Shown here: in pieces, positions 1-18,583 of the stretch
Layout: every line of letters begins with the position of its first letter
Position numbering within the stretch: position 1 is the first letter of the stretch
From: Solirubrobacteraceae bacterium
GTDB lineage: Bacteria; Actinomycetota; Thermoleophilia; Solirubrobacterales; Solirubrobacteraceae
Reading direction: 5' to 3'
NCBI GenBank assembly: GCA_029263125.1
Contig: JAJCYD010000033.1
Span: forward strand, 124,001 to 188,000
DNA: 64,000 bases
Notes under the pieces: model-generated
Databases searched by the model: none
Seen by the model: the letters and a program-made list of their open reading frames with translations, nothing else
Told to the model about the DNA's origin: nothing
Made by a program: the position numbers and the translations under genes

Positions 1-164
1 TCGTGCGCATGGACGAGGAGCGCGGTCTCGCGCTCTGCGCGGACGACGACGGGAACTCGGAAACGGTAGAAACCGACTTAGTCGCCCCGGTGGCGCCGGG
101 GGATAGGCTCCTGGTACACGCCGGCACGGCGATCGCACGGCTCACCGAGGAGGGCCCCGCATGA
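1..164 (+). CDS. hypC: HypC/HybG-family hydrogenase maturation chaperone, 3' end only
   Basis: Only the C-terminal part is present; the 5' end lies outside the window. The frame ending with the TGA at 162-164 encodes a tail containing VAPGDRLLVHAGTAIARL, the typical HypC ending. HypC escorts the Fe(CN)2CO unit with HypD to the hydrogenase large subunit. Its stop overlaps the hypD ATG (ATGA), so the two are translationally coupled. The N-terminal Met-Cys motif that binds iron cannot be checked here. Confidence 0.85.
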   Translation, partial: VRMDEERGLALCADDDGNSETVETDLVAPVAPGDRLLVHAGTAIARLTEEGPA

Positions 165-2365: not shown

Positions 2366-2385
2366 TCGAACAGGGAGGAGCTCAC

Positions 2386-3447: not shown

Positions 3448-3459
3448 GAGGAGAGACAC

Positions 3460-5241
3460 ATGGCCACAGCGTATACACCGGCTGCGACGCAGGGCGTCGT
3501 TGTCAAGGAGATGGCGTGGGACCCGATCACACGGATCGTGGGCTCTCTCGGCATCCACACGGAGATCGACTTCACGAACCGTAAGGTCAACAAGTGCTAC
3601 AGCACTTCGATGATCTTCCGTGGATTCGACATCTTCATGAAGGGGATCGATCCGCGTGATACCCACTTCATCACGAGCCGCATCTGCGGCATCTGCGGTG
3701 ACAACCACTGCACCGTTTCGTGCCTGAACCAGAACATGGCCTATGGGGTCAAGCCGCCGAAGCTCGGCGACTATGCCTTCAACCTGGCCGAGACCGCGGA
3801 CTACATGTTCGACCACGCGATCTTCAACGATTGCATGGCCAACGTGGACTTCTGCGAGCAGATGGTCAAGGAGACCAACCCGTCCGTCCTCGCGAAGGCC
3901 GAGAACACCACGGCCCCGCACTGCGACATCCACGGGTACAAGACCATCGCGGACATCATGCGCGCGCTGAACCCGTTCACGGGTTCGTTCTACCTGGAGA
4001 CGCTCGGCGTCGCTCGGTACACGCGTGAGATGTACTGCCTGTTCGGCGGCCGGCACACGCACCCCTCGACGATCCTGCCGGGTGGTTGCAGCGCCGACAT
4101 CACGCACCAGACGATGACGGACTACTACGTCCGCCTCATGCGCTACATGGACTACATCAAGCGCACGGTGCCGATGCACGATGACCTCTATGACTTCTTC
4201 TATGAGGCCATGCCGGGCTACGAGCGGGTCGGCTACCGCGACACGGACATCATCTGCTGGGGCGCGTTCGACGATCCCGAGTACGTGACGTACGACTACA
4301 AGACGATGACCGACTGGGGCCGCAAGCGCTTCATCACCCCTGGTCTGGTCTTCAAGGGCGAGCTGATCACGACCGACCTGGTCGAGATCAACCTGGCGAT
4401 GCGCATCCTGCTGGGCCATTCGTACTTTGACGATTGGGACCAGGAGGAGACGTTCGTCACGAACGATCCGCTCGGCAACCCGGTCGACAAGCGTCACCCG
4501 TGGAACAAGCAGACGCTGCCGAAGCCGCAGAAGCGCGACTTCAACGACAAGTACTCGTGGGTCGCTGCGCCGCGCATGTACGACAAGCGCAACGACATCT
4601 ACGTTGCGACTGACACCGGTGGCGGCCCGTTCGCGCGCAACTGGTGCACGGCGAAGGCCGGCCTGGTCGATCTCGGCTACCTCAAGGCAACGGGTTCCAG
4701 CATCCAGATGGTGCTGCCGAAGTCGCTGAACATGCCCGAGATGGAGCTCGAGTGGAAGATCCCGCCGTGGTCCAACGCCATCGAGCGTGACCGCGCACGT
4801 ACCTACCATCAGCCGATTTCCGCGCTGATCGGTCTGTACAACCTCGAGAAGGCTCTGGTCGAGGTCCGTGCCGGTCGCACGAAGTCGTGGAACAGCTTCA
4901 CGGTGCCGGAGGAGGCAATCTCCTGCGGTTTCCACGAGGCCGCTCGCGGCGTCATCAGCCACCACATGGTCATTCGCGACGGCAAGGTCGCGAACTACCA
5001 GCCGTATCCCCCGACCCCGTGGAACGGGAACCCGCGCGACAAGTTCGGGACCCCGGGACCCTACGAGGACGCTGTCCAGAACACCCCGATCTTCGAGGAG
5101 AACGGGCCGGACAACTTCAAGGGGATCGACATCATGCGCGCTGTGCGCTCCTTCGACCCGTGCCTGCCGTGCGGTGTGCACATGTACACCGGCAAGGGCC
5201 GCGTCAAGAAGGTCCAGCACACGCCGACGGGGATGTGCTGA
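3460..5241 (+). CDS. hhyL: [NiFe]-hydrogenase large subunit, group 1h type
   Basis: The product is 593 residues, starting at an ATG with AGGAGGAG upstream, 12 bp after hhyS. It binds the NiFe(CN)2CO active site. The N-terminal Ni motif is RICGICGDNHC (Cys76, Cys79) and the C-terminal one is DPCLPCGVH (Cys568, Cys571, His574). Nineteen residues follow His574 (MYTGKG through PTGMC), the peptide normally removed by a maturation endopeptidase once nickel is in place; such a protease is encoded at 8333-8953. Length and sequence style match the group 1h partner of the small subunit. Confidence 0.96.
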   Translation: MATAYTPAATQGVVVKEMAWDPITRIVGSLGIHTEIDFTNRKVNKCYSTSMIFRGFDIFMKGIDPRDTHFITSRICGICGDNHCTVSCLNQNMAYGVKPPKLGDYAFNLAETADYMFDHAIFNDCMANVDFCEQMVKETNPSVLAKAENTTAPHCDIHGYKTIADIMRALNPFTGSFYLETLGVARYTREMYCLFGGRHTHPSTILPGGCSADITHQTMTDYYVRLMRYMDYIKRTVPMHDDLYDFFYEAMPGYERVGYRDTDIICWGAFDDPEYVTYDYKTMTDWGRKRFITPGLVFKGELITTDLVEINLAMRILLGHSYFDDWDQEETFVTNDPLGNPVDKRHPWNKQTLPKPQKRDFNDKYSWVAAPRMYDKRNDIYVATDTGGGPFARNWCTAKAGLVDLGYLKATGSSIQMVLPKSLNMPEMELEWKIPPWSNAIERDRARTYHQPISALIGLYNLEKALVEVRAGRTKSWNSFTVPEEAISCGFHEAARGVISHHMVIRDGKVANYQPYPPTPWNGNPRDKFGTPGPYEDAVQNTPIFEENGPDNFKGIDIMRAVRSFDPCLPCGVHMYTGKGRVKKVQHTPTGMC

Positions 5242-5249
5242 GGGCCTAA

Positions 5250-5870
5250 ATGGCAACTCAGCATCAAGCTCCGGAAGAGCTGGTCGAGCGGGTCCAGGAA
5301 CTCCTGGGCTCGCTCGACGAAATTGCCGATCCTGTCGCGCAAGCGCGCGTGCAGGAGTTGGTCGGCACGGTTCTCGAGCTGTACGGAGCTGGTCTGGAGC
5401 GGATCCTCGGCGTCATCACTGACGCCGGGGATCGCGCCATTCCGATCCGCGACGCACTGCTCGATGACGGCATCGTTGCCAGCCTGCTGCTGATCCATGG
5501 CCTGTACCCGGTGCCGCTGGAAGAGCGCGTCACCGAGGCGGTGGAGAGCGTCAGGCCGTTCCTCGCGTCGCATGGTGGCGGCGTGGAGATCCTCGGAATC
5601 GAGGATGGCATCGCGCGTCTGCGTCTTCAGGGCAGCTGCAATGGCTGTCCTGCGTCGGCGTCGACGCTCGAGCACGCGCTGAAGGAAGCGATCGACGAAG
5701 CTGCTCCCGACCTGCTGTCGCTCGAAGTCGAGGGCGCCGTGGGATTGGAGTCTCAGGACGCAGAGAAGTCCTCCCTCGGATTTGCGCTGCCCATGGTGCA
5801 GGCTGGTCCGGCGACGCTGCCGATGGCGGATTCGCCGTACACCGAGTGTCCGTCGGGCGTGGGGAAGTGA
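5250..5870 (+). CDS. NifU C-terminal-domain protein of the hydrogenase operon
   Basis: The product is 206 residues. Residues about 88-165 form a NifU C-terminal domain with GSCNGCPAS (Cys130, Cys133), the CxxC that holds a bridging Fe-S cluster in scaffold proteins. The first 85 residues are helical and do not match NifU. NifU-like proteins are known next to group 1h hydrogenase genes. A role in delivering or repairing Fe-S clusters of the small subunit, or as electron carrier, is inferred from position. It starts 8 bp after hhyL and its stop overlaps the next start (GTGA). Confidence 0.85.
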   Translation: MATQHQAPEELVERVQELLGSLDEIADPVAQARVQELVGTVLELYGAGLERILGVITDAGDRAIPIRDALLDDGIVASLLLIHGLYPVPLEERVTEAVESVRPFLASHGGGVEILGIEDGIARLRLQGSCNGCPASASTLEHALKEAIDEAAPDLLSLEVEGAVGLESQDAEKSSLGFALPMVQAGPATLPMADSPYTECPSGVGK

Positions 5871-6490
5871 GCGGAACCGCTCGCCTCCCGTCCACCCTCG
5901 TTGCTGGCTTGGGCCGCCTCGCGCGGCCCGAGCCCGTTGAGGAGGACGAACGCTGCGAGGTCTGCGGCAGCAAGATCCTCGTAGACCACCGGCATCTGCT
6001 CGAGCTCGAGGAACGGCGCATCCTGTGCGCCTGCGAGCCGTGCATCGCGATGCGCTCGGGCGTGGACAACTACTGCCCGGTCGGAACGCGCACGCTGTGG
6101 CTGGACGACATCGACTTCCCCGACGAGCTGTGGGCGGCCTTCCAGCTGCCGATCGGCCTGGCCTTCTTCCTGAAGTCCTCGGGAACGGGCACCGTCGTCG
6201 CGCTCTACCCGAGCCCGGCCGGTGCGACGGAATCCGAGCTGCACCTGGAGAGCTGGGAAGCGCTCGTCGCACGCAACCCGATCCTCAGCCAACTGGACAC
6301 CGACGGCGAGGCCTTCGTCGTCAACCGCATGACCGAGCCCGCGGAGCACGCGATCGTGCCGATCGACGAGTGCTACCGCCTCGTCGGGCTCATCAAGAGC
6401 AACTGGACCGGCATCTCCGGCGGCAATGCGATCTCCGATGCCGTGCCCCTCTTCTTCGATCACATACGCCGCAAGGCAGGAGTGCAATGA
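5867..6490 (+). CDS. Conserved hydrogenase-associated protein, Cys-rich (DUF5947-like)
   Basis: The product is 207 residues from GTG 5867, which overlaps the previous stop; another GTG at 5846 would add 7 residues. It resembles the DUF5947 proteins found beside group 1h hydrogenases, an assignment made from memory. Near the N-terminus it has CEVCG (Cys30, Cys33), then DHRH (His41, His43), then CACEPC (Cys54, Cys56, Cys59), a pattern suited to binding zinc, an Fe-S cluster or a Rieske-like centre. No membrane segment is seen. The function is unknown; a redox or assembly partner of the hydrogenase is plausible. Confidence 0.82.
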   Translation: MSGTARLPSTLVAGLGRLARPEPVEEDERCEVCGSKILVDHRHLLELEERRILCACEPCIAMRSGVDNYCPVGTRTLWLDDIDFPDELWAAFQLPIGLAFFLKSSGTGTVVALYPSPAGATESELHLESWEALVARNPILSQLDTDGEAFVVNRMTEPAEHAIVPIDECYRLVGLIKSNWTGISGGNAISDAVPLFFDHIRRKAGVQ

Positions 6491-7194
6491 GTACCGACAA
6501 GCCCCCCGCCGCGCCTGCAGCGACCCCGGCTCGCGACCACGGCCCCGAGATCACCCTCGAGGTGCTCGGTGCCGCACACGAGCCGTTCGCCGCGCAGCCC
6601 ACGCTGCGCTTCGAGATGGGCGTGTCCGAGCCTTCGGGTCGCGACATCTACGCGATCTCGCTGACCGCCCAGATCAACTTCGATCCCGCGCGCCGCCAGT
6701 ACGACAACGAGACGCGCGCCGACCTCTACGAGCTCTTCGGCGCGCCGGAGCGCTGGCCGTCGACAACGCGCAGCTTCCTGTGGACGCACTCGAGCACGCT
6801 CGTGCATTCGTTCAAGGACGCGATCACGTTCGGTCTGGCGGTTCCGTGCACCGCCGACCTCGAGGTCGTCGCGGCGCGCTATGTCGCGGCGCTTCCCGAC
6901 GGCGACGTGCCGCTCACCTTCCATTTCACGGGCCGCATCCTGTACGCCGGGCCCAACCGCCAGGTGCAGGTCGTGCACCTGCCGTGGAGCACGTCATGCG
7001 AGTACAAGCTGCCGGTCGCGACGTGGAAGGCGATGATCAAGCATCACCACGGCGAGTCGGGCTTCGCGCTGCTGCACAACGACACACTTGACGGCCTGAA
7101 GAAGTACAAGCGGGCCAAGGGCCTGCACAGCTTCGATGCCTGCGTCGAGGACCTGCTCCAGCGAGTGCCCACAGAAGAGGAGGCGATCGGATGA
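6487..7194 (+). CDS. Conserved hydrogenase-associated protein (DUF6084-like)
   Basis: The product is 235 residues from the ATG at 6487, which overlaps the preceding stop (ATGA). It resembles the DUF6084 family recalled from group 1h hydrogenase loci. The sequence is beta-rich (EITLEVLGAAHEPFAAQPTL, then YAISLTAQINFDPARR), has conserved-looking Trp and Tyr residues (LFGAPERWPSTTRSFLWTHS) and no Cys-rich motif or membrane helix. The function is unknown. Its tight coupling on both sides suggests it is made in step with the hydrogenase, perhaps as a structural or assembly factor. Confidence 0.82.
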   Translation: MSTDKPPAAPAATPARDHGPEITLEVLGAAHEPFAAQPTLRFEMGVSEPSGRDIYAISLTAQINFDPARRQYDNETRADLYELFGAPERWPSTTRSFLWTHSSTLVHSFKDAITFGLAVPCTADLEVVAARYVAALPDGDVPLTFHFTGRILYAGPNRQVQVVHLPWSTSCEYKLPVATWKAMIKHHHGESGFALLHNDTLDGLKKYKRAKGLHSFDACVEDLLQRVPTEEEAIG

Positions 7195-8336
7195 GCAGCT
7201 CCAGCTCCATTGACCCAATCACGCCCGAGAGCCCCTCGAATGTCGGAGCGACATCGACGAAGTCCCACCTCGAGCGGCTCGTGGACTCGCTGCTCTTCGA
7301 GGGGTACGCGCTCTATCCCTACACGCCGGGCGCGACGAAGAACGCGACGCCGACGCCGTTCGGGATCGTCTACCCGCGCGACTACGCCCAGACCCAGACG
7401 CACGCGTTTGACCGCATGCAGATGCAGTTCATCGTCAGCAAGGACGCGGTCGTGACCGGAGAGGTGCGCTTCCTGCAGGCGTCCGGTGAGAAGCACCGCG
7501 CCGTCGAGCGCCGCGTGCAGCTCGGCGTCGCTCCGGCGAAGGTGTCCTTTGACTTCGACGACCTCGAAGGGGTCGCCGATATCGACACCGACATCCTCCC
7601 CGACGGCCGTGGTCGCGTCACGCTGAAGGTCGAGAACACGACTCCGCTGACCGAGGAGGAGTCCACGGGCGATCGCAAGGACGCGCTGCTGAAGAGCATG
7701 CTCTCCACGCACCTGCTGGCTCAGACCGAGGGCGGGGCGATGATCGTCTCCCCGCTGGAGCGCGGGGACGACGGCGTCGCCGGCTGCTGCCAGGTCAACA
7801 CCTGGCCGGTGCTCGCCGCGCCCGGCGATGACGCGATCCTCGCACCGACGATCATGCTGCCTGATCATCCGGAGATCGCGCCGGAATCCGTCAACGACTT
7901 CTTCGACGGCACCGAGATCGAAGAGGCGCTGGTCCTTCACATCCAGGCGCTGTCAGAGCAGGAGCGCGAGGAGATCGCCGCTCAGGATCCCAAGGTGCGC
8001 GAGATGCTCGCCCGCGCGGACGCCACGACGCCCCAGCAGCTCATGGACCTGCACGGCCGCGTGCGCCTGGAGGATCCCCCCGGCGAGCGCGAGGTGACCT
8101 TCGAGGGCGTGACGTACAAGCGCGGCGACAAGGTCATCCTGCACCCGCCGCTGGACGCCGACGTGTACGACAAGATGCTCAACGGTCGCACCGCGACGAT
8201 CCACCGGCTGTTCCTGCGGGTGGACGATCGACTGCATCTCGGCGTCACGATCGACGACGACCCGATGCAGGAGATCCTCGGCGAGAGCGGCCGCTTTCTG
8301 TTCTTCTTCTCCGAAGAGGTCGAGGTGGTGACATGA
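7191..8336 (+). CDS. Conserved hydrogenase-associated protein of unknown function, 381 aa
   Basis: I do not recognise a named family. The ATG overlaps the previous stop, and the 3' end overlaps the protease start. An N-terminal segment (LERLVDSLLFEGYALYPYTP then ATPTPFGIVYP) is followed by a beta-rich middle (QMQFIVSKDAVVTGEVRFLQ), a stretch with GCCQVNTWPV, and a C-terminal part that resembles a small beta-barrel (GVTYKRGDKVILHPP through DDRLHLGVTIDDDP). That last part looks like the HypC/HupH-type accessory folds, a weak impression only. No signal peptide or membrane helix is seen. Position between structural and maturation genes argues for a hydrogenase-specific role. Confidence 0.8.
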   Translation: MSSSSSIDPITPESPSNVGATSTKSHLERLVDSLLFEGYALYPYTPGATKNATPTPFGIVYPRDYAQTQTHAFDRMQMQFIVSKDAVVTGEVRFLQASGEKHRAVERRVQLGVAPAKVSFDFDDLEGVADIDTDILPDGRGRVTLKVENTTPLTEEESTGDRKDALLKSMLSTHLLAQTEGGAMIVSPLERGDDGVAGCCQVNTWPVLAAPGDDAILAPTIMLPDHPEIAPESVNDFFDGTEIEEALVLHIQALSEQEREEIAAQDPKVREMLARADATTPQQLMDLHGRVRLEDPPGEREVTFEGVTYKRGDKVILHPPLDADVYDKMLNGRTATIHRLFLRVDDRLHLGVTIDDDPMQEILGESGRFLFFFSEEVEVVT

Positions 8337-8953
8337 CCGAGGAACGCGCACGCGAGACGACCGAGCCTCCGAAGGACACCTGGCGCCCGCCGGCGCACGA
8401 CGCGCCGCTGGTGACCCACGAAGTCGACGTCTCCAACCGCCCCAAGCAGGTGCTGATCGCCGGCATCGGCAACACCTGGCAGCGCGACGACGGCTTCGGC
8501 AGCGAGGTCGCTCGCAGGCTGGAGGCGCGCGAGATGCCCGAGGGCGTCGCGGTCATCGACTTCGGCACCGGCGGCCTGGACCTGGCCTACCAGGTGATGT
8601 ATGGCTACGACGGTCTGGTCATGATCGACATCAGCCGCCAGGGCGGTTCGCCCGGCACGCTGTATGTCATGGAGATCGACGAGGACGATGTCACGTCCGG
8701 TGTAGAGGACGGCGACGCGCTCAACCCGCATGCGATGGACCCCGAGACCGTCCTGCGCTTCATCAAGCTGACCGGCGGATGGCCCGGAAAGGTCGTCATC
8801 GTCGCCTGCGAGCCGCTGACCGTCGAGGAGATGGGCGTCGGGCTGAGCCCCGTCGTCGAGGAGGCCGTCGACCGCGCCGTCGACCTGGCCCTGGACACGG
8901 CCAAGGAGCTGCTCACCGACGAGGCCTACGCGTCGCTGGACGAGAAGACGTAG
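8333..8953 (+). CDS. Hydrogenase maturation endopeptidase (HyaD/HybD/HoxM family)
   Basis: The product is 206 residues. The core VLIAGIGNTWQRDDGFGSEV (residues 40-59) is the family GIGN-x4-DDGxG motif; its acidic residues bind the nickel of the immature large subunit. GYDGLVMIDISRQGG matches the second conserved segment. These proteases clip the C-terminal tail of the large subunit after nickel insertion, here predicted to be the 19 residues after His574 of HhyL. About 35 extra N-terminal residues precede the core. The start overlaps the preceding stop, and hypA starts 2 bp after its TAG. Confidence 0.92.
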   Translation: MTEERARETTEPPKDTWRPPAHDAPLVTHEVDVSNRPKQVLIAGIGNTWQRDDGFGSEVARRLEAREMPEGVAVIDFGTGGLDLAYQVMYGYDGLVMIDISRQGGSPGTLYVMEIDEDDVTSGVEDGDALNPHAMDPETVLRFIKLTGGWPGKVVIVACEPLTVEEMGVGLSPVVEEAVDRAVDLALDTAKELLTDEAYASLDEKT

Positions 8954-8955
8954 AC

Positions 8956-9321
8956 GTGCACGAGTTCGATCTCTCCAGCGCCGTGGTCACGACGGTGACC
9001 AAGCACGCGGCCGGACGCCAGGTCCAGCACGTGACGCTGCGCATCGGGCGACTGCGCCAGGTCGTGCTGAGGACGCTGGAGTTCTACTTCGCGATCGTCG
9101 GCAAGGACACGGTCTGCGAGGGCGCTACGCTGGAGATCATCGACGTGCCCGCCGTGCTGCGGTGCAACACCTGCAAGAACGAGTGGGAGATCGAGATCCC
9201 GGCGTTCATCTGCGGCACCTGTGGTCCGGGCGCGGTCGAGGTCGCGACGGGCGAAGAGTTCATGGTCGAATCGATCGAGGTCGAGGACGAGGAGAACGCC
9301 GCATGCACCGCACCAAGGTGA
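8956..9321 (+). CDS. hypA: HypA nickel metallochaperone
   Basis: The product is 121 residues from a GTG start. It begins Met-His-Glu, the N-terminal nickel site of HypA, and has the zinc ribbon CNTC (Cys70, Cys73) and CGTC (Cys87, Cys90, within one residue). HypA passes Ni(II) to the hydrogenase with HypB. The 3' end overlaps hypB by 19 bp in a different frame. The start was chosen because any longer reading overlaps the protease and lacks the required Met-His. Confidence 0.95.
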   Translation: MHEFDLSSAVVTTVTKHAAGRQVQHVTLRIGRLRQVVLRTLEFYFAIVGKDTVCEGATLEIIDVPAVLRCNTCKNEWEIEIPAFICGTCGPGAVEVATGEEFMVESIEVEDEENAACTAPR

Positions 9322-10076
9322 GAGTCGTCGAGGACGCCCTCGACGCCAACAACACGATCGCCCAGGCCAACCGCGCCGACTTCGATCGCGAGCACGTCAC
9401 GGTCGTCAACCTCATGAGCGCCCCCGGCGCCGGCAAGACGACGCTGCTGGAGAGCGCGCTCGTCGGCCTCGACGAGGAGGGCCTGCGGGTCGGCGTGCTG
9501 GAGGGCGACGTCGCCGGCAGCTTTGACGCAGACCGCCTGTCGGTGCTGCACATCCCGGTCACGCAGCTGAACACCGACAACGGCTTCGGCGGCGAGTGCC
9601 ACCTGGATGCCAACATGGTGCGCTCCGCGCTGCCCGCCGTCGCGCTGGACGACATGGACGTCCTGATCGTCGAGAACGTCGGCAACCTCGTCTGTCCTGC
9701 CGAGTTTCGCATCGGCGAGGACACGCGGATCATGGTCTGCTCGGTCACCGAGGGCGAGGACAAGCCGCTGAAGTACCCGCTGATGTTCCGCGCCTGCGAG
9801 CTCGTCGTCATCAACAAGACCGACCTCCTGGCGCACCTGGACTTCGACGCCGACCTGCTGGAGCGCAACGTCAAGCAGGTCAATCCCGACGCCACGGTCA
9901 TGCGCGTCAGCGCGAAGACCGGCGAGGGGGTCGAAGCGTTCCGCGCGTGGCTCAAGGCGCTGCCGGAGCGGATGGGCGACGCGTCCCACGGTCACGATCA
10001 TGATCACGACGGCCATGACCATGATCACGACCACGGGCACGATCACCACGACCACGAGCAGGTCACGACCGCGTGA
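9303..10076 (+). CDS. hypB: HypB nickel-insertion GTPase with C-terminal His tail
   Basis: The product is 257 residues from ATG 9303, inside the 3' end of hypA. It is a SIMIBI GTPase: P-loop APGAGKTT (40-47), the metal-site Cys99-His100 in GGECH, Cys131, and NKTD (171-174) for guanine. HypB drives nickel insertion with HypA. Two features are unusual: the N-terminal CxxCGC motif is absent, and a run with 12 His in residues 229-251 lies at the C-terminus, whereas nickel-storing HypBs usually carry it near the N-terminus. The tail may store Ni or Zn. The stop overlaps the next GTG. Confidence 0.96.
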   Translation: MHRTKVRVVEDALDANNTIAQANRADFDREHVTVVNLMSAPGAGKTTLLESALVGLDEEGLRVGVLEGDVAGSFDADRLSVLHIPVTQLNTDNGFGGECHLDANMVRSALPAVALDDMDVLIVENVGNLVCPAEFRIGEDTRIMVCSVTEGEDKPLKYPLMFRACELVVINKTDLLAHLDFDADLLERNVKQVNPDATVMRVSAKTGEGVEAFRAWLKALPERMGDASHGHDHDHDGHDHDHDHGHDHHDHEQVTTA

Positions 10077-11290
10077 AGCTCGCGCCCGGCGCCATGCGCG
10101 TCGAGGCCCTGCTGCGGGAGCGCAGCGAGGCCAACGCGCACTTCTTTCAGACTGAGGCCGAGCGCCTCTCCAAGCTCTGCCACAAGATGGCCGAGCGCTT
10201 CGCGCGCGAAGGGCGCCTCGTGGCGTTCGGCGCATCGCCGGCCGATCGCTCCGACGCGCGCCACGTCGCGGTGGAGTTCGTGCACCCGGTCATCGTCGGC
10301 AAGCGGGCGCTGCCCGCGCTCGGTCTGGCGGGCGAGGGCGGGCAGATCGCCCCGCAGGTCGCGCTGGAGGCCGAGGCCGAGGACATCGCGATGGCCTTCG
10401 GCGACGAGCCCGACATCCTCGCCGCGCTGGCCGCAGCCCGCAAGCGGGGCTGCCTGACGATCGCCTTCACGCTCGGCTCCGGCGCCGAATGGGAGTTCGA
10501 CCTGGAGGCCATCTCCGATCCCCTGATCCGCCAGGAGATCGTGGAAACGCTCTACCACACGCTGTGGGAGCACGTCCACATCTTCCTCGACAACCGCGGC
10601 CTGCTCGAAGGCCGGGCGGCGCGCCCGGTGCACGACTCCGGCGCGTCAAGCTTCCTCTATCCGTTCCTCGGCCAGCAGGAGACCGACCTCGACGCGATCC
10701 TCGCCGACGTCAAGCAGTCGATCCTGCTCAAGGCCGACGAGATCGGCGCGCTGCGCACGCAGACGCTGACGGAGTTCGGCGCCGGGCTGCTGGATGCCGG
10801 TCAGATCCTGCGCGAGCGACTGGACGCCGGGGGCCGCTTGATCGCGCTGGGCAACGGCGGTTCGGCAACCGACGCGATGGACGTCGTCGCGGACTTCCGC
10901 ACGCCGATGTTCGGCGGTCCGCCGCGGCGCGCGCTGGACCTCACCGAGGACACGGGCATCATCACGGCGGTGGCCAATGACATCGGCACCGACGCGATCT
11001 TCCTGCGCCAGGTCATCGCCTACGGCCGCGAGGGCGACGTGCTGCTCGCGCTGTCGACGAGCGGCAACTCGCTGAGCATTCTGGAGGCGCTGCGCGAGGG
11101 GCGCAAGCGCGGCATGGTCACGATGGCGTTCGTCGGCTACGACGGTGGCAACGTCGCCGCGGACAATCTCGCCGACCACGTCTTCGTCAGCCGCTCGGAG
11201 AACATCCCGCGCATCCAGGAGGCGCACGCCAGCGGCTACCACGTGCTGCGAGAGCTCGTGGAGCTGGCGGAGCCCGCGACCGAGTCGTGA
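10073..11290 (+). CDS. Double SIS-domain (phosphoheptose-isomerase-like) protein in the hyp operon
   Basis: The product is 405 residues from GTG 10073, overlapping the hypB stop. The second half is a GmhA-like SIS domain: LIALGNGGSATDAMDVVADF is the sugar-phosphate loop, followed by LALSTSGNSLSILEAL. The first half looks like a decayed SIS domain (RLVAFGASPADRSDARHVAV) lacking the Ser-rich loop. SIS proteins bind or isomerise phosphosugars, yet this one lies between hypB and hypF. Similar genes are recalled in mycobacterial group 1h clusters. Its hydrogenase role is unknown. Confidence 0.88.
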   Translation: MKLAPGAMRVEALLRERSEANAHFFQTEAERLSKLCHKMAERFAREGRLVAFGASPADRSDARHVAVEFVHPVIVGKRALPALGLAGEGGQIAPQVALEAEAEDIAMAFGDEPDILAALAAARKRGCLTIAFTLGSGAEWEFDLEAISDPLIRQEIVETLYHTLWEHVHIFLDNRGLLEGRAARPVHDSGASSFLYPFLGQQETDLDAILADVKQSILLKADEIGALRTQTLTEFGAGLLDAGQILRERLDAGGRLIALGNGGSATDAMDVVADFRTPMFGGPPRRALDLTEDTGIITAVANDIGTDAIFLRQVIAYGREGDVLLALSTSGNSLSILEALREGRKRGMVTMAFVGYDGGNVAADNLADHVFVSRSENIPRIQEAHASGYHVLRELVELAEPATES

Positions 11291-13587
11291 GCACGGCCGC
11301 GGAGGGTTCACCTCGACCCTCGACGACGCTTCGGCGGGTGCGGGCGCGCGTCGACGGCACGGTGCAGGGTGTGGGATACCGACCGTTCGTCTATCGCCTG
11401 GCGCAGGAGTTCGGGATCGCCGGGTGGGTGCTCAACGACGAACGTGGCGTGCTGGTCGAAGCCGAGGGCCCCGCCGACGTCGTCGAGGCGTTCCTGGATC
11501 GGCTGCGCGCCGACGCGCCGCCGCTGGCCGACGTGCGCGGAGTCGAGGCCGAGGACATCGATGCGCTGGGCGACCCGGGCTTTCAGATCGTCGCCAGCCA
11601 ACGAGGCGGGGCCGCGACGGCTCCCGTCACGGTCGACTCGGCGACGTGCGAGGACTGCCTCGCGGAGCTGGCCGACCCAGCCGATCGTCGTCACCGCTAT
11701 CCGTTTCTGAACTGCACGAACTGCGGGCCGCGCTTCACGATCGTGACCGGGATCCCCTACGACCGGCCGGCGACGACGATGGCGGGCTTCGTCATGTGCG
11801 ACGCCTGCCAGGCCGAGTACGACGATCCGCTGAACCGCCGCTTCCATGCACAGCCCAACGCCTGCCCCGCCTGTGGACCTCGGGTGCGCCTGGTCGAGCG
11901 CGACGGGTTGGAGGTCGAGACCGACGACGCGATGCGCGCCGCGGCGCAGGACCTGCTCGACGGGCGGATCCTCGCGATCAAGGGCCTCGGCGGCTATCAC
12001 CTCGCGTGCCGCGCTGACGACGAGACCGTTGTCGCCGCGCTGCGCGCGCGCAAGCGCCGCGAGGACCGGCCGTTCGCGCTGCTCGTCGCCGACGTCGAGG
12101 CGGCGCGACGCCTCGTGACGCTGAGCGAGCCCGAGCAGGCGCTGCTCACCTCACGCCAGCGGCCGATCGTGCTCGCGCGCCGCCTGCCCGACGCGCCCGT
12201 CGCGCCGTCCGTCGCGCCTCGGGCCCCGGATCTCGGCGTGATGCTCCCCTACACGCCGCTTCACCAGCTGCTGGCCACCGACGCCGGCGTGGCGCTGGTG
12301 ATGACCAGCGGCAACGTCTCCGACGAGCCGATCGCCTTCGACGACGGCGACGCGCGCGAGCGCCTGGAGCAGATCGCCGATCGCTTTCTCGTCCACGATC
12401 GCCCGATCGCCACGCGCACCGACGACTCCGTCGTGCGGGTGGTGCGCGAGCGGCCACTGCTCATGCGCCGCTCGCGCGGCCACACGCCCGCGGCGCTGGA
12501 TCTGCCCGTCGCCTCTGCGCGGCATCTGCTCGGCGTCGGCGCCGAGCAGAAGAACGCGTTCTGCGTGGCCAAGGGCGACCGTGCGTGGCCGAGCCATCAC
12601 ATCGGCGACATCAAGAACTACGAGACGCTGACATCGCTGCGCGATGGCGTCACGCACTTCGAGGCGCTGTTCGAGGTCGCGCCGGAGGTCGTCGCGCACG
12701 ACCTGCATCCCGACTACCTCTCGACGCGCTACGCGCTGGAGCGCGAAGGGGTCGAGCTCGTCGAGGTTCAGCACCATCACGCGCATCTTGCGGCGACGCT
12801 CGCCGAGCACGGCGAGACGGGACCGGCGGTCGGCGCGATCTACGACGGCACGGGCCTGGGCAGCGACGGGACGATCTGGGGTGGGGAGATCCTCGTCGGC
12901 GGCCTGGCGGACTTCGAGCGCGCCGGGCGTCTGGCCGGCGTCTGGCTGCCCGGCGGTGAGGGCGCGATCCGCGAGCCGTGGCGGATGGCGTGCTCGTGGC
13001 TGACGCAGATGCGCGAGCCGCTGCCGCCCGCGTTCGAGCCGATCGCCCAGCAGCGCTGGAACATGGTCGCGCGGATGGTCATGACCGGCGTCGGCGCCAC
13101 CTCGACGTCGAGTGCCGGCCGCCTCTTCGACGCTGTGGCGGCGATGTGCGGCGTGCGACTGGAGGTCAGCTACGAGGGCCAGGCGGCCGTCGAGTTCGAG
13201 GCCCTTGCCGATCCGGGCGCCGCCGAGCCCTACGAGTTTCAGCTGCAGGCGATCGCGCCCGTCGTCATGAACCCCCAGCCGGCGATCCGCGCCGTGCTCG
13301 CAGACCTCGCCGCCGGCGTGCCGGTGTCGACGATCTCGGCGCGCTTTCACGCCGGCCTGGCACGTGTGACCGTCGAGGCGTGCGTGCTCGCCGCCGAGCG
13401 CGCGGACGTGGACCTCGCCGTGCTGTCGGGCGGCGTCTTTCAGAACCGCCTGCTGCTCGAGCTCACGGCGGCCGGTCTGGAGTCGGCGGGCCTGCGCGTG
13501 CTCGTCCCGGAGCGCCTACCCCCGAACGATGGGCAGATCGCTTTCGGCCAGGTGGCGGTGGCGGCCGCGCGCGAGGCGGCTGGCTGA
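11287..13587 (+). CDS. hypF: HypF carbamoyltransferase
   Basis: The product is 766 residues from GTG 11287, overlapping the previous stop. HypF makes carbamoyl-adenylate from carbamoyl phosphate and ATP and loads HypE's C-terminal Cys, providing cyanide ligands. Domains in order are an acylphosphatase (VDGTVQGVGYRPFVYRLAQ, about 18-36), two zinc-finger pairs (CEDC with CTNC, CDAC with CPAC, about 119-198), a YrdC-like domain (about 215-390) and a Kae1-like domain with the metal motif VQHHHAH (about 493-499). All key features are intact. It is the last gene of the hydrogenase run. Confidence 0.97.
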   Translation: MSTAAEGSPRPSTTLRRVRARVDGTVQGVGYRPFVYRLAQEFGIAGWVLNDERGVLVEAEGPADVVEAFLDRLRADAPPLADVRGVEAEDIDALGDPGFQIVASQRGGAATAPVTVDSATCEDCLAELADPADRRHRYPFLNCTNCGPRFTIVTGIPYDRPATTMAGFVMCDACQAEYDDPLNRRFHAQPNACPACGPRVRLVERDGLEVETDDAMRAAAQDLLDGRILAIKGLGGYHLACRADDETVVAALRARKRREDRPFALLVADVEAARRLVTLSEPEQALLTSRQRPIVLARRLPDAPVAPSVAPRAPDLGVMLPYTPLHQLLATDAGVALVMTSGNVSDEPIAFDDGDARERLEQIADRFLVHDRPIATRTDDSVVRVVRERPLLMRRSRGHTPAALDLPVASARHLLGVGAEQKNAFCVAKGDRAWPSHHIGDIKNYETLTSLRDGVTHFEALFEVAPEVVAHDLHPDYLSTRYALEREGVELVEVQHHHAHLAATLAEHGETGPAVGAIYDGTGLGSDGTIWGGEILVGGLADFERAGRLAGVWLPGGEGAIREPWRMACSWLTQMREPLPPAFEPIAQQRWNMVARMVMTGVGATSTSSAGRLFDAVAAMCGVRLEVSYEGQAAVEFEALADPGAAEPYEFQLQAIAPVVMNPQPAIRAVLADLAAGVPVSTISARFHAGLARVTVEACVLAAERADVDLAVLSGGVFQNRLLLELTAAGLESAGLRVLVPERLPPNDGQIAFGQVAVAAAREAAG

Positions 13588-13830: not shown

Positions 13831-14274
13831 ATGGACGGCTTCGCTCTCAGCGAACGCTGGAACGGCTGGTCTGATCTGAACGTCATGGCCGAGGCGGCGC
13901 GTGCCGCCGCTGATGCCGGGCCGCTGGATCCGATCGTCTGCGAGATCACGCTGGACTGGGATGACGACGAGACGACACTGCACAGCCTCGAAGAGTTGCA
14001 GGCGCTGCTTCGCAGCGGCGCGGTGCCCGAGGCGCTGGAGATCGAGGTTGCCCACATCGTCGAGTCCGAGGCGAGCCTGAACCTCGCCTACAACGGCCGC
14101 TGGCTGCAGATCAACGGCGCCGGCAGCGACTGGGAGCGCGCTGGGAACGCCTACCGCGCGGCGCAGGTCGAGATCGCGCTCGTCGCCGGGATCACGACGT
14201 TCAAGCTGCCGACGCTGCCGCGCGACACCGTCGCCGAGACACGCAAGCGCCTCAACCAGCCTCCGGAGGCGTAG
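13831..14274 (+). CDS. Hypothetical protein, 147 aa
   Basis: I do not recognise a family. The product is a soluble acidic protein (ITLDWDDDETTLHSLEEL) with a C-terminal LPRDTVAETRKRLNQPPEA. No signal peptide, membrane helix or Cys motif is seen. The ATG at 13831 follows a short leader after the hairpin. It converges with, and overlaps by 23 bp, the gene on the opposite strand. Confidence 0.65.
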   Translation: MDGFALSERWNGWSDLNVMAEAARAAADAGPLDPIVCEITLDWDDDETTLHSLEELQALLRSGAVPEALEIEVAHIVESEASLNLAYNGRWLQINGAGSDWERAGNAYRAAQVEIALVAGITTFKLPTLPRDTVAETRKRLNQPPEA

Positions 14275-14650
14275 GGCCGTCCGCCGGCAGCTCGTCGGCG
14301 GCGTCGTCGTGGGTGAACCAGTCGGGGATCGTCAGCGGCGCGTCCGGTGAGGCGTCGAGGCCGTCCGGCGGCCAGCGCTGCGGGTACGGCGGCTGCTTCC
14401 AGACCCACTGCTCGCCGGTATAGGCGTGGTGGAAGCGAATCGACTTCAGCAGCTTCTTGCGATGCTGGGGGCAGGCGTAGCGGCGCGGTCCGAGCAGTCC
14501 GCCGGCGTGCCACACGAGCCAGTTGCCGGGCATCGCGTCGATCAGCTCGCCGAAGAGGTCTTCGCGCGTCGACGCGCCGATGCTGTTGCGCGTCGCCTCG
14601 TCGGCCACGCAGCCGCAGATGTCGCAGCGAAACCAGTAGCGGACGGGCAT
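14252..14650 (-). CDS. Hypothetical zinc-ribbon-like protein, 132 aa
   Basis: The N-terminus RYWFRCDICGC has a CxxC pair and a second Cys/His group occurs at RYACPQHRKK, a pattern that could bind one zinc. The middle is rich in Trp and Tyr (AYTGEQWVWKQPPYPQRWP). No catalytic motif or membrane segment is visible and I cannot assign a function. It converges with the 13831 gene. The region 14651-14708 between it and the next hairpin holds nothing else recognisable. Confidence 0.65.
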   Translation of the reverse strand: MPVRYWFRCDICGCVADEATRNSIGASTREDLFGELIDAMPGNWLVWHAGGLLGPRRYACPQHRKKLLKSIRFHHAYTGEQWVWKQPPYPQRWPPDGLDASPDAPLTIPDWFTHDDAADELPADGPTPPEAG

Positions 14651-14745: not shown

Positions 14746-14943
14746 TCACGCGTGCTCGTGCTCGTGGACGTCCTCGACGCCCTCCTCGTGCACATGGGTG
14801 TGCGCGTGCATCTCGCCATCGTGCTCGTGCTCGTGGGCGTGCTCGACGTGCTCGTGGTCGTGCTCGGTGTGGGCGTGGACGTGGGTCTCGCCGTCGTGCT
14901 CGTGCTCATGGACGTGCGGTGCGTCGTGGGTGTGCTCTGTCAT
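14746..14943 (-). CDS. Histidine-rich small protein (65 aa, 23 His), candidate metal buffer
   Basis: Of 65 residues, 23 are His and 15 are Glu, mostly in alternating H-x-H patterns with no Cys. An internal duplication is visible: HVHEHEHDGETHVHAH (10-25) matches HAHEHEHDGEMHAHTH (35-50). Such sequences bind Zn, Ni or Co. The ATG overlaps the stop of a zinc-type ArsR repressor gene (ATGA), so both are made together, and zur and znuBCA lie just upstream. A cytoplasmic metal buffer or chaperone released when metal is high is the natural reading, but no family is recognised and low complexity makes homology hard to judge. Confidence 0.75.
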   Translation of the reverse strand: MTEHTHDAPHVHEHEHDGETHVHAHTEHDHEHVEHAHEHEHDGEMHAHTHVHEEGVEDVHEHEHA

Positions 14944-15323
14944 GCGTGCTCCTCTGTCGGGGTTGTCGTGTCGCCGGCGCGCAGATGCTCGATGTGTCGC
15001 AGCGCCTCGTCGAGCAGCGCCGCCACGTGCGAGTCGTAGAGCCCGTAGATCACGTGACGGCCGTTGCGGTTGCCCAGGACGAAGCCCAGGTCGCGCAGGA
15101 TGCGCAGCTGATGGGAGACCGCCGGCTGCTCCATCTCGACGGCGAGGGCAAGCTCGCCGACGGTGCTCGCTCCCTCGCGCAGGCGCGCGAGGATCCGCAC
15201 GCGGCTCGGCGTCGCCAGCGCGCTCATGACGCGCGCGACGTGGCGTGCGTCAGCGGTGGTGACCGGTGTGCCCGGGCCGGCGTGGTGTGCGAATCCCATC
15301 CACTGTGATGCTGGCATGCACAT
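14940..15323 (-). CDS. ArsR/SmtB-family zinc-type repressor
   Basis: The product is up to 127 residues. The winged helix is clear (LATPSRVRILARL, then MEQPAVSHQLRILRDLGFV). The last helix reads YDSHVAALLDEALRHIEH: Asp97-x-His99-x10-His110-x2-His113, exactly the alpha-5 zinc site of CzrA/SmtB-type sensors. It should repress its own transcript and release it when Zn (or Co/Ni) binds. The true start may be the ATG at 15299 (codon 9), because the first ATG lies inside a palindrome that looks like the operator. It is coupled to the His-rich gene downstream. Confidence 0.9.
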   Translation of the reverse strand: MCMPASQWMGFAHHAGPGTPVTTADARHVARVMSALATPSRVRILARLREGASTVGELALAVEMEQPAVSHQLRILRDLGFVLGNRNGRHVIYGLYDSHVAALLDEALRHIEHLRAGDTTTPTEEHA

Positions 15324-15332
15324 GTGTGCATG
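15315..15332. promoter_or_regulatory. Candidate ArsR operator palindrome
   Basis: CATGCACA and TGTGCATG form a perfect 8-2-8 palindrome over the first annotated codons of arsR. ArsR/SmtB sensors bind imperfect palindromes of this size at their own promoters. Only a 30-bp gap separates zur and arsR, so arsR either has its own promoter here or is also read from the znu-zur transcript. Confidence 0.55.
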
Positions 15333-15353
15333 TCAAACGGGAACCTGTTTCGA

Positions 15354-15824
15354 TCAGCGCCGTCGCTGCGTGCGCGCGCACGTGGGACACAGCCCGACGA
15401 TGGGGAAGTGCGAGAAGCGCGCCTCGAAGCCCGACAGCTCGCGCACCGCCGCGCGCACGTCATCGAGCGAGGCGGGATCGACGGACTCGACGACGCCGCA
15501 GGACTCGCAGGCCAGGTACTCGCGGTCCGCGCGGCTCTCCAGCACGTAGCGCCCCGGCCCGTGGCCGGCGTGGAAGTGGCGCACGAGCCCGAGGCCGCCG
15601 AGCGTCTCGAGGTTGCGGTACACCGACGCGATGTCCGACTGGGTCATCGTCCCGCCGAGGCCGTCGGCGATCTCCTCGGCGGAGATCGGCCCCTTGGCGG
15701 CGAGCAGGGCTTCGAGCACCAGCCGCCGGGCCGACGTGAGCCGCAGGCCGCTGCGCCGGACCGCCGCGATTGCCTCGTTGAGGTCCGCCACCACCACCGG
15801 CTGCCTGTCGGGTGAAACCGTCAC
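15354..15824 (-). CDS. zur: Fur-family regulator, probably zinc uptake regulator Zur
   Basis: The product is 156 residues. The Fur-type DNA-binding domain includes LRLTSARRLVLEALL and SDIASVYRNLETL. Metal ligands visible are His83, His85, His88 (HFHAGH) and two CxxC pairs (Cys106/109 and Cys146/149) for the structural zinc. Gene order znuA-znuC-znuB-zur on one strand points to Zur rather than Fur or PerR. It would repress zinc uptake when zinc is sufficient. It lies 91 bp after the znuB stop. Confidence 0.85.
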   Translation of the reverse strand: MTVSPDRQPVVVADLNEAIAAVRRSGLRLTSARRLVLEALLAAKGPISAEEIADGLGGTMTQSDIASVYRNLETLGGLGLVRHFHAGHGPGRYVLESRADREYLACESCGVVESVDPASLDDVRAAVRELSGFEARFSHFPIVGLCPTCARTQRRR

Positions 15825-15915: not shown

Positions 15916-16773
15916 CTAGCGCGCGTGCGCCGGACGCAAGCCGTTCCTGCGACCGCGAACCAGTGGCCCGGTCCCCATGAAGACCACGGCGAACAGCGTC
16001 GCGGCGACGAGCACGATCGTCGGGCCGGACTGCACGTCGAGGTGGTAGCTGAGGTTCATGCCCACGAAGCCGCAGCAGGCGCCGATGAGCGAGGACATCC
16101 ATAGCATGCGGCTGAAGGACGTCGTCAGCATCCGCGCGACGGCTGGCGGGATGACGAGCGCGGCGGCGATCAGCGTGACGCCGAGGATCTTCATCGTCGC
16201 GAGGATCGATCCGGCCAGCACGAGCATCAGCAGGGCGTCCATGCGCGCGGTGTTGACGCCCGAGACCTCGGCGACCTCCGGGTCGAACGTCGTGAACAGC
16301 AGCGCGCGGTAGCGCAGGAAGACGAGCGTCGAGGCGAGCACCGACACGACCGCGATCGCGATGACGTCCTGCGTCCCGACCCCGAGGATGCTGCCGAACA
16401 GTGCGGCGTCGAAGCTTCCGCCCTCGCCGTCGAAGAAGGCGAACAGCGCCAGGCCGAGCGCGAACGAGGCGGTCGTGATGACGCCGATCGCGGCGTCGGA
16501 GCGGATCACGCGCCGCCGCGTGACGCCGTTGATCATCAGCGCCGACGCCACGCCCCACGCACCGGCGCCGAGCAGGAAGTTGATGCCCAGCAGCGTGCTC
16601 GCCGCGAAGCCGCCGAAGATCGCGTGCGACAGGCCGTGGCCGATGTAGCTCATGCCCTTGAGCACGACGTACACGCCGACGAGGCCGCACAGCGCGCCGG
16701 CCATCGTCGCGACGATCAGCCCGTTGCGAAAGAACTCGAACTCGAACGGGCGCAGCAGCTCGGCGGCCATCAT
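15916..16773 (-). CDS. znuB: Zinc/manganese ABC transporter permease (ZnuB family)
   Basis: The product is 285 residues from the ATG at 16773, which overlaps the znuC stop; reading further upstream merges into antisense-frame sequence over znuC. It is an ABC-3 family permease with about eight hydrophobic helices (for example LIVATMAGALCGLVGVYVVL and ILATMKILGVTLIAAALVIP). It forms the channel for the metal delivered by ZnuA. Metal specificity (Zn against Mn) is inferred from the neighbouring zur. Confidence 0.93.
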   Translation of the reverse strand: MMAAELLRPFEFEFFRNGLIVATMAGALCGLVGVYVVLKGMSYIGHGLSHAIFGGFAASTLLGINFLLGAGAWGVASALMINGVTRRRVIRSDAAIGVITTASFALGLALFAFFDGEGGSFDAALFGSILGVGTQDVIAIAVVSVLASTLVFLRYRALLFTTFDPEVAEVSGVNTARMDALLMLVLAGSILATMKILGVTLIAAALVIPPAVARMLTTSFSRMLWMSSLIGACCGFVGMNLSYHLDVQSGPTIVLVAATLFAVVFMGTGPLVRGRRNGLRPAHAR

Positions 16774-17588
16774 GTGAGGCCCCGGTCCGCGTGCTCGTGG
16801 GTGTGCTCGTGGGCGTGCTTGTGTGAGGCAGCCGCGTGGCGGTGCGAGAAGCTGTCCACGACGACCGGCATGCCGCCGTGCTCGAGTACCTGCATGCTCG
16901 CCCCATAGGTGCGCTCGAGGATGTCGGGCGTGAGCACGTCCACCGGGCGTCCGGCTCCGAGCACGGTGCGGTTCAGGCACACGACATGCGGCAGGTGGGC
17001 GGCGATCCCGTTGAGGTCGTGCGTGGTTAGCAGGATCGCCAGGCCGCGGGCGTTGAGGTCGTCGAGCAGGTGCAGGATCTCGTGGCGCAGGCGCACGTCG
17101 ACACCGGAGGTGGGCTCGTCGAGCAGCAGCAGATCGGGCTCGCCGAGCATCGCGCGGGCGATGAACACCCGCTGCTGCTGGCCGCCGGACAGCTCGCGGA
17201 TGTGACGGTCGCTGAGGTGCTCGATGTCCAGCCGGGCGAGGATCTCCGACACCGCCGCGCGCTCGGCGGTGCTCGGCCACGGCCAGCGCCGGCCGTGCAC
17301 GCGCGCCATCAGCACGCATTGCGCCACGGTCACCGGAAAGCTCCAGTCGATCGTCTCGACCTGCGGGACGTAGGCGATGCGCAGGCCGCCGCGGCGCGTC
17401 ACGGTTCCGCGAAGGGGCTGCATGCTGCCGGCCACCGCGCGCAGCAGCGTCGTCTTGCCAGACCCGGACGGGCCGACCACGCCCACGAACTGGCCCGCAC
17501 CCACCGCGACGTCCACGTCGACGAGCACATCCTCCGACGCGTAGCGGCACGTGACGCCGTGCAGCGCGACGAGCGGCCCGCCGCTCAC
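16770..17588 (-). CDS. znuC: Zinc ABC transporter ATP-binding protein with His-rich tail
   Basis: The product is 272 residues from GTG 17588, overlapping the znuA stop. Walker A is GPSGSGKTT (39-47), the signature LSGGQQQR and Walker B LLLLDEPTSGVD are intact. Residues 246-272 carry 8 His in an H-x-H style tail, which could sense or buffer zinc on the cytoplasmic side. It powers import through ZnuB. Confidence 0.95.
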   Translation of the reverse strand: MSGGPLVALHGVTCRYASEDVLVDVDVAVGAGQFVGVVGPSGSGKTTLLRAVAGSMQPLRGTVTRRGGLRIAYVPQVETIDWSFPVTVAQCVLMARVHGRRWPWPSTAERAAVSEILARLDIEHLSDRHIRELSGGQQQRVFIARAMLGEPDLLLLDEPTSGVDVRLRHEILHLLDDLNARGLAILLTTHDLNGIAAHLPHVVCLNRTVLGAGRPVDVLTPDILERTYGASMQVLEHGGMPVVVDSFSHRHAAASHKHAHEHTHEHADRGLT

Positions 17589-18583
17589 TGTGGGTACTCC
17601 GCCTCGTCGGGTGCGGTGTCGCCGGGCTCGAAGGCCTTCAGCGCCGATGCGTCACCGCCCATCGCCTCGGTCATCGTCACGTAGTCGAAGTGCATGAGCC
17701 CCATCCACGAGTGCTCGGGTTCGCCGGGCTTGCCGGGCAGGTCGTCGTCGCGCAGGACGTCGACGTACTTCACGCCCGCCTCCTTGCCGATCTGCCTGAG
17801 CACCGGGCTGGGGAAGACCTCCGAGCCGAAGATCGCGGGAACCTTCGTCCGTCTGACCTGGTCGATGAGACGTGCGACCTCCTTCGGCGTCGGGTCCTCG
17901 AAGTCGGACACCTGGATCGCCCCGATGACGTCCCAGCCGTAGTCGCGGGAGAAATAGGCGTAGGCGTCGTGGTAGGTCAGCAGCTTGCGCTTGGCGCGCG
18001 GGATCGTCGCGAACGATGCGCGCATCGCCGCGTCGAAGGCGTCGACCTTGGCCTTGAACGCGTCGTAGTTCTCGCGGAACGTCGAGGCGTCGTCCGGATC
18101 GCGCTCGGAGAGGTCGTCGCGGATGATCTGCGCGTACTTCAGCGCGTACTTCGGATCGGTCCACAGGTGCGGGTTGGGCTTGCCGCCGGACTTCGGAAAC
18201 GAGAAGTCATAGGCGTACTGGCTCTCGGGGATCGACTGCGTGCCGAGCTCGACGATCTCGGCGCCGTCCTTGATGTTGGACTCGGCCAGCTTCTTCGTCG
18301 GCTCTTCGAGCTTCAGGCCGTTGACGTAGATCACGTCGACGGTCGACAGGAGCTCGGCGACGCTCGGCTTGGGCTCGAAGGTATGCGAGTTGGTGCCCTC
18401 GGGAACGATCCCGGTGATCTTCACGCGGTCGCCGCCGATCTGCGACGCGATGCTCGTGATCGGCGCGACGGTCGTGGCGACCGAGAGCCTGCCCTCGTCG
18501 GTCGTCGCGTCGTTGGCGCACCCCGCGAGGAGCGGCGCGAGGCCGGCTGTCGCGCAGAGTGCGGCGAGCTGACGAGTGCCCAT
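17585..18583 (-). CDS. znuA: Zinc ABC transporter substrate-binding lipoprotein
   Basis: The product is 332 residues with a lipoprotein signal (LAPLLAGC, Cys22). Cluster 9 metal-binding ligands are His67 (NSHTFEP), His139 (NPHLWTDP), His205 (LTYHDAYAYF) and an acidic ligand near Glu255/Asp280. The His-rich loop of many zinc ZnuAs is missing, so Mn cannot be excluded from this gene alone. It is first in the znuACB-zur order; the 59 bp upstream must contain the promoter, but I see no convincing Zur box. Confidence 0.93.
   Translation of the reverse strand: MGTRQLAALCATAGLAPLLAGCANDATTDEGRLSVATTVAPITSIASQIGGDRVKITGIVPEGTNSHTFEPKPSVAELLSTVDVIYVNGLKLEEPTKKLAESNIKDGAEIVELGTQSIPESQYAYDFSFPKSGGKPNPHLWTDPKYALKYAQIIRDDLSERDPDDASTFRENYDAFKAKVDAFDAAMRASFATIPRAKRKLLTYHDAYAYFSRDYGWDVIGAIQVSDFEDPTPKEVARLIDQVRRTKVPAIFGSEVFPSPVLRQIGKEAGVKYVDVLRDDDLPGKPGEPEHSWMGLMHFDYVTMTEAMGGDASALKAFEPGDTAPDEAEYPQ

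Follow-up and report, generated by a model that had tools for sequence, protein, structure and literature searches.

Organization of the locus

The stretch of DNA analysed here, referred to as the window, comprises 64,000 nucleotides of a Solirubrobacteraceae genome (assembly GCA_029263125.1, contig JAJCYD010000033.1, positions 124,001 to 188,000) and contains, on its minus strand, an ArsR/SmtB repressor gene followed by a short gene for a His-rich peptide of 65 amino acids (aa). An initial annotation, made from the DNA letters, had described an ArsR regulator coupled to a 65-aa product with 35% His, and both open reading frames (ORFs) are found in this place, joined by a 4-bp overlap of the ArsR stop codon and the peptide start codon (ATGA, 14940-14943). 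The pair and its putative control region include:

14746..14943, minus strand: His-rich peptide of an H-x-H family, 65 aa; homologues with 20 invariant His and fewer nonsynonymous (pN) than synonymous (pS) differences
14940..15323, minus strand: NmtR-like ArsR/SmtB repressor; Pfam HTH_5 2e-13, best PDB relative NmtR 5e-31
15315..15332, no strand: candidate operator, a perfect 8-2-8 palindrome of 18 bp, CATGCACA-CA-TGTGCATG; a degraded palindrome lies in the same place in genome G006
15308..15336, minus strand: candidate promoter; -35 TTGACA (15331-15336), 17-nt spacer, -10-like CAGCAT (15308-15313)

The peptide contains 23 His (35%), 15 Glu and no Cys, with 16 H-x-H steps, and a GAGGAG ribosome site precedes its ATG. 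The Cys-rich metal clusters of metallothioneins are absent, with no Cys in the window peptide and at most one in its relatives. All 23 His are kept between the window peptide and that of the sister species G006, compared with 25 of the 42 other residues, and on the sense strand the pair gives a pS of 0.39 and a pN of 0.14. The same relation, pN below pS, was found in 11 of 11 peptide pairs (window/G006 and ten more). The peptide is thus a real gene under purifying selection, and not a chance reading frame, because two further genomes of this family also have ArsR-peptide pairs and pN is lower than pS. A V/L/M-rich hydrophobic ORF on the antisense strand (14752-15039) showed the reverse pN/pS pattern in 10 of the 11 pairs and was ruled out as a gene by this substitution pattern.

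Searches of the peptide against Pfam, NCBIfam, PHROGs and PDB gave no match, in line with the earlier remark that no named family was known for it. The same annotation took the peptide to be duplicated, which holds for some relatives only (9/2000 in G013 and 25/2000 in G011, by shuffles with the His positions held); for the window peptide, 285 of 2000 such shuffles equalled its 25-residue repeat, which is not significant. The Rfam scan and a generic promoter and terminator scan of the locus returned nothing.

The ArsR sensor and its candidate operator

The longest ArsR ORF encodes 127 aa and has the exact alpha-5 motif D-S-H-x10-H-x2-H at residues 97-113, confirming that the sensor keeps the Asp-x-His-x10-His-x2-His site noted before. 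Its assignment as a zinc sensor was not supported. Among PDB relatives, NmtR (5e-31, 110 bits) is nearest by a wide margin over SmtB (4e-17, 66 bits) and CzrA (1e-13, 55 bits), with 56% identity to NmtR over 102 aa, and in the tree the ArsRs linked to the peptide make up one clade (96/97) within an NmtR-like group (86/91, below the starred level). The Ni ligands of NmtR include Asp91, His93, His104 and His107, which is the same D-x-H-x10-H-x2-H arrangement (PMC7055735), so the motif by itself is no pointer to zinc. By sequence the window sensor is closest to NmtR, which, like KmtR, senses Ni and Co (PMC10961391, PMC7689651).

Because the first ATG of the ORF falls inside the palindromic operator, the probable start of ArsR translation is Met9 (15299), with a product of 119 aa. 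From this start the N-termini are MGFAHH in the window, MGQAHGVSS in G006 and MASKHGVSS in G370, resembling the MxHG(V) start of CDF-linked NmtR-like relatives with two additional residues; His would thus stand at positions 5 and 6, compared with the His3 ligand of NmtR. The leader before Met9 would be short or missing.

The palindrome sits between the -35 TTGACA and the -10-like CAGCAT and has no second perfect copy in the 3.75-Mb genome, where the next best site has 3 mismatches, which suggests that this ArsR may control just the ArsR-peptide unit. The candidate promoter was not found by a generic sigma-70 scan and its call rests on conservation, the layout TTGACA-N16-nnAGCAT being common to the window, G006 and G370.

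The same genome encodes a second NmtR-like ArsR (L002, G000:C35:173229-176531), 57% identical to the first, with an MSHGVQG start, and its gene overlaps that of a CDF exporter with a His-rich N-terminus. This second pair is likely a Ni/Co efflux unit.

Distribution of the peptide family

Profile searches, with a profile built from five and later ten members, found the peptide in 17 of 399 Thermoleophilia genomes, in 9 of 396 genomes of a phylum-wide sample and in 45 of 148 Mycobacterium species, including M. asiaticum, M. scrofulaceum and M. shimoidei; Lentzea was also matched. An alignment of ten members, drawn from Thermoleophilia, Mycobacterium, Lentzea and a Pseudonocardiales bacterium, shows 20 invariant His. 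The ArsR-peptide pair itself occurs in G006, a second species of the genus (about 74-78% identity for ArsR and 73-74% for the peptide), and in G370, of the same family as the window genome; the initial annotation had made its proposal depend on such conservation in relatives. No description of the peptide was found in the searchable literature, which misses most subscription papers, and by its sequence it is a previously unnamed conserved family.

Some members depart from the common form. Two relatives from another family of the class (L102 110-469 and L101 4697-4885) have an extra C-terminal PGF(L/F)AR(L/F)FGAR, which looks amphipathic, and one of them is 107 aa long. G365 has three copies (L096, L097, L098), one with a Nur-like Fur and CbiMNQO, another with a Nur-like Fur and a ZnuABC-like transporter, and the third on a short contig without nickel genes. 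The sole non-actinobacterial match in the genome scan fell on the His tail of the urease nickel chaperone UreE (L079); this Porphyromonadaceae UreE (3780-4469) has a long His-rich tail with 56% identity to the peptide over 41 residues.

Genes accompanying the peptide in other genomes

The surroundings of the peptide gene were surveyed in 19 non-mycobacterial genomes. In 17 of them a nickel/cobalt permease, CbiM or hydrogenase/hyp genes lie near it (within about 3 kb). NicO scored over the cut-off in 12 of the 19, and in all 12 a copy lies 0.1-3.3 kb from the peptide, mostly at less than 1 kb; the chance of these 12 adjacencies would be about 1e-28 if the genomes were independent, a figure weakened by their relatedness, although the set spans eight genera. 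Within the class sample, genomes with the peptide have NicO more often (12/17) than those without it (131/382, Fisher p = 0.0036), and the permease copy in L089 exceeds the NCBIfam cut-off for NicT. CbiM is found 0.6-3 kb from the peptide in G006, G365, G653 and G314, and hyp/hydrogenase genes adjoin it in the window, G013, G033, G385 and G354; in the window and G013 they take the place of NicO and CbiM. Gene orders vary, including Fur-NicT-peptide (G317, G387, G393), NicT-Fur-peptide (G385), ArsR-peptide-NicT and hypF-peptide, the last in G013, where hypF overlaps the peptide gene. In G604, an exception to the nickel neighbourhood, the peptide gene starts 4 bases past a CoxE-like VWA gene (L104 5305-7068).

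In mycobacteria a KmtR-like ArsR gene is directly upstream of the peptide, on the same strand, in all 31 loci checked. The protein of one of them (L107, the one sequence checked), numbered from its Met9, has H88, E101, H102, H110 and H111, which we take to be the His/Glu ligands of KmtR, reportedly listed in work by Campbell from 2007. Because the mycobacterial ArsR lineage is separate from that of the window in the tree, sensor and peptide were probably brought together on two or more occasions. Since the same peptide is linked in some relatives to KmtR and in others to nickel importers with a Nur-like Fur, the constant part of the family would appear to be a nickel-handling role, with a switch that varies among a Nur-like Fur, an NmtR-like ArsR and KmtR.

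Neighbouring genes in the window

The genes around the pair are the following:

161..13587, plus strand: [NiFe]-hydrogenase and maturation genes; Pfam HypD, cobW/HypB, SIS_2 and HypF, with NiFeSe_Hases for 3460-5241
9312-10076, plus strand: hypB with a His-rich tail; Pfam cobW/HypB
10073-11290, plus strand: SIS gene; Pfam SIS_2
11287-13587, plus strand: hypF, last gene of the hydrogenase cluster; Pfam HypF
14252..14650, minus strand: 132-aa protein; homologues of 38-44% in G385 and G354
15354..15824, minus strand: Fur-family regulator, Nur-like; Pfam FUR 2e-14, best PDB relative Nur (3eyy)
15916..16770, minus strand: ABC transporter permease-like protein, ZnuB-like by homology among relatives; 77-87% identity to peptide-adjacent copies in G013, G011 and G365
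16770..17588, minus strand: ABC transporter ATPase of the Znu/Mnt/Azt type with a His-rich C-terminal tail; Pfam ABC_tran, the NCBIfam matches shown being below the cut-offs
17585..18583, minus strand: ZnuA-type solute-binding protein, candidate metal Zn or Ni; Pfam ZnuA 6e-66, NCBIfam AztC, MntC and ZnuA all below the cut-off

The plus-strand hydrogenase/hyp cluster ends just past the 3' side of the peptide gene. Its hypD, large subunit, hypB and hypF were confirmed by Pfam, and the remaining gene names are putative, assigned in part by homology. The 132-aa protein has no Pfam match; its homologues adjoin hydrogenase small-subunit genes in G385 and G354, and it possibly belongs to an unnamed hydrogenase-linked family. 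Chains of H-x-H occur on three separate genes within 9 kb, namely the peptide, the tail of the ABC ATPase (16770-17588) and the tail of HypB (9312-10076). A second ZnuA-like protein is encoded elsewhere in the genome.

The Fur-family regulator had been named zur, and its nearest relative is instead the nickel regulator Nur of Streptomyces coelicolor (PDB score 7e-20 vs 2.6e-7 for Zur/FurB). The window Fur and its close relatives keep three His aligned with Nur H70, H72 and H126 (numbered by count), which we take to be metal-site residues. A three-His site has been described for Nur (PMC7055735). The four-His site of Nur (H33, H86, H88 and H90, by count) is absent from the window Fur in the alignment and, because one His site of Nur is kept while the other is missing, the protein is labelled Nur-like and not Nur. 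The Cys/His set of FurB/Zur (an HHHHH stretch and nearby Cys), which we presume to be regulatory, is also missing from the window Fur in this alignment.

Proposed function of the ArsR-peptide pair

Here it is proposed that ArsR and the peptide form a unit that buffers metal and is induced by it, the metal being most likely nickel and possibly Co, a reading we hold to be likely on the strength of a real, conserved gene, its overlap with arsR, its neighbourhood, the affinity of the sensor by sequence and the palindrome. The NmtR-like ArsR would repress its own promoter from the 18-bp palindrome between -35 and -10, until Ni(II) (or Co) in the cytosol occupies its D-x-H-x10-H-x2-H site and releases it from the DNA, and de-repression would then yield ArsR and the translationally coupled peptide together. 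The peptide, as a flexible H-x-H chain with Glu, would soak up several Ni(II) ions in the cytosol, limiting free Ni and keeping a Ni store beside the [NiFe]-hydrogenase maturation genes (hypA/hypB/hypF), from which metal might be handed over to Hyp proteins. A wider scheme, which we offer tentatively, would have the Nur-like Fur controlling a ZnuABC-type importer of nickel for the hydrogenase, with the peptide as the store feeding HypA/HypB and the actinobacterial family placed independently under NmtR-like and KmtR sensors as well as beside a Nur-like Fur.

Several points weigh against a nickel buffer. The ABC transporter adjoining the pair is of the Zn/Mn type, and binding by H-x-H peptides does not discriminate among Zn, Cu, Co and Ni. 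Two of the 19 surveyed genomes (G334 and G604) lack a nickel gene near the peptide, genomes of one genus are not independent, and the window genome itself has neither NicO nor CbiM, so that its nickel link comes from the sensor and the hydrogenase cluster. In some relatives one operon holds both the peptide and an importer, an arrangement pointing to expression when nickel is low and not when it is high.

This last point leads to the main rival within the nickel reading, a metallochaperone or collector made when nickel is scarce, which would pass Ni from the importer to HypA/HypB or the hydrogenase; we regard it as possible, its probability overlapping with that of the buffer of which it is a variant. 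The operons Fur-NicT-peptide and NicT-Fur-peptide and the hypF overlap in G013 agree with it, as does the repression of nickel uptake genes by Nur when nickel is present (PMC7055735). However, the partner of the peptide is an ArsR in the window, G006, G370 and the mycobacteria, a type of regulator that lifts repression when metal is in excess, and apart from its His and Glu the peptide has neither a folded domain nor a motif for binding a partner.

A zinc buffer, with a sensor of the SmtB/CzrA type and a peptide for zinc storage or detoxification as the counterpart of a ZnuABC under Zur, corresponds to the two-sided system first suggested for this locus, and is a weaker rival that we consider unlikely. 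A ZnuA-type ABC transporter does adjoin the pair, znuABC-like genes also stand beside the peptide in G013, G011 and G365, the D-x-H-x10-H-x2-H site is also that of SmtB and CzrA, and H-x-H peptides bind zinc well. Nevertheless, the ArsR is nearest to NmtR and not to SmtB or CzrA, the Fur is nearest to Nur and lacks the Zur/FurB Cys/His positions in the alignment, and the peptide accompanies nickel/cobalt genes in most relatives and follows KmtR in mycobacteria; zinc uptake under Zur paired with zinc buffering under ArsR therefore fits the regulators and the neighbours across genomes poorly, and the metal buffered by the peptide is probably nickel and not zinc. The same design serving chiefly Co, to supply B12 or confer cobalt tolerance, is rather improbable: Ni or Co is the substrate of the NicO and CbiMNQO families, and NmtR and KmtR sense both metals (PMC7689651), but hyp/hydrogenase neighbours, which require Ni, occur in the window and four other genomes, and the surroundings of the peptide showed no genes for B12 synthesis, although no specific search was made for them. 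Finally, a CDF exporter once located behind ArsR could have decayed to leave its His-rich N-terminus as the peptide, given that an NmtR-like ArsR adjoins a CDF exporter in the same genome and in several relatives, the copy of this genome having a His-rich N-terminus. Free-standing homologues of the same length with 20 invariant His, present across classes and also without ArsR or CDF, and the selection that preserves them make such an origin very improbable, and family conservation largely refutes it.

Comparison with known systems

If the nickel buffer is correct, nickel buffering would stand on a much wider footing, extending to hydrogenase-bearing soil actinobacteria and, behind KmtR, to about 30% of the sampled Mycobacterium species; the peptide would be an overlooked, likely target of KmtR and a marker pointing to nickel genes, and a zinc annotation drawn from motif reading alone would be corrected.

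The window ArsR shares with NmtR of M. tuberculosis the sequence identity and alpha-5 site given above, and from the likely start it would also have a His near the N-terminus, at position 5 instead of 3; NmtR controls the exporter NmtA, whereas the gene downstream of the window ArsR is the peptide. KmtR (Rv0827c), a Ni/Co-sensing ArsR whose relatives directly precede the peptide in the mycobacterial loci, has a CDF exporter as its reported target, and the part of that literature available to us makes no mention of a downstream His-rich peptide. S. coelicolor Nur is the nearest solved relative of the window Fur, which keeps its three aligned His and lacks its four-His site.

For the peptide, the H-x-H-rich extensions of the nickel chaperones HypB and UreE are comparable, differing in that the chain is there fused to the chaperone and here encoded by a separate gene with its own sensor. 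To our knowledge, the well-described free-standing nickel-storage proteins are those of gastric Helicobacter. Hpn and Hpn-2 are, like the window peptide, small, free-standing and His-rich, and Hpn sequesters nickel and protects from its overload, working alongside hydrogenase and urease in the nickel economy of the cell (PMC4671568). No relation to Hpn was detected in the family-library searches (Pfam, NCBIfam), which did not extend to a direct comparison with the Hpn sequence. Hpn has been reported only from gastric Helicobacter, under NikR, whereas the family described here is actinobacterial, has alternating H-x-H with Glu and is linked to ArsR, KmtR or Nur-like regulators. By analogy, the peptide may act as Hpn and the His-rich extensions of HypB and UreE do, while forming an actinobacterial family of its own that has dedicated sensors.
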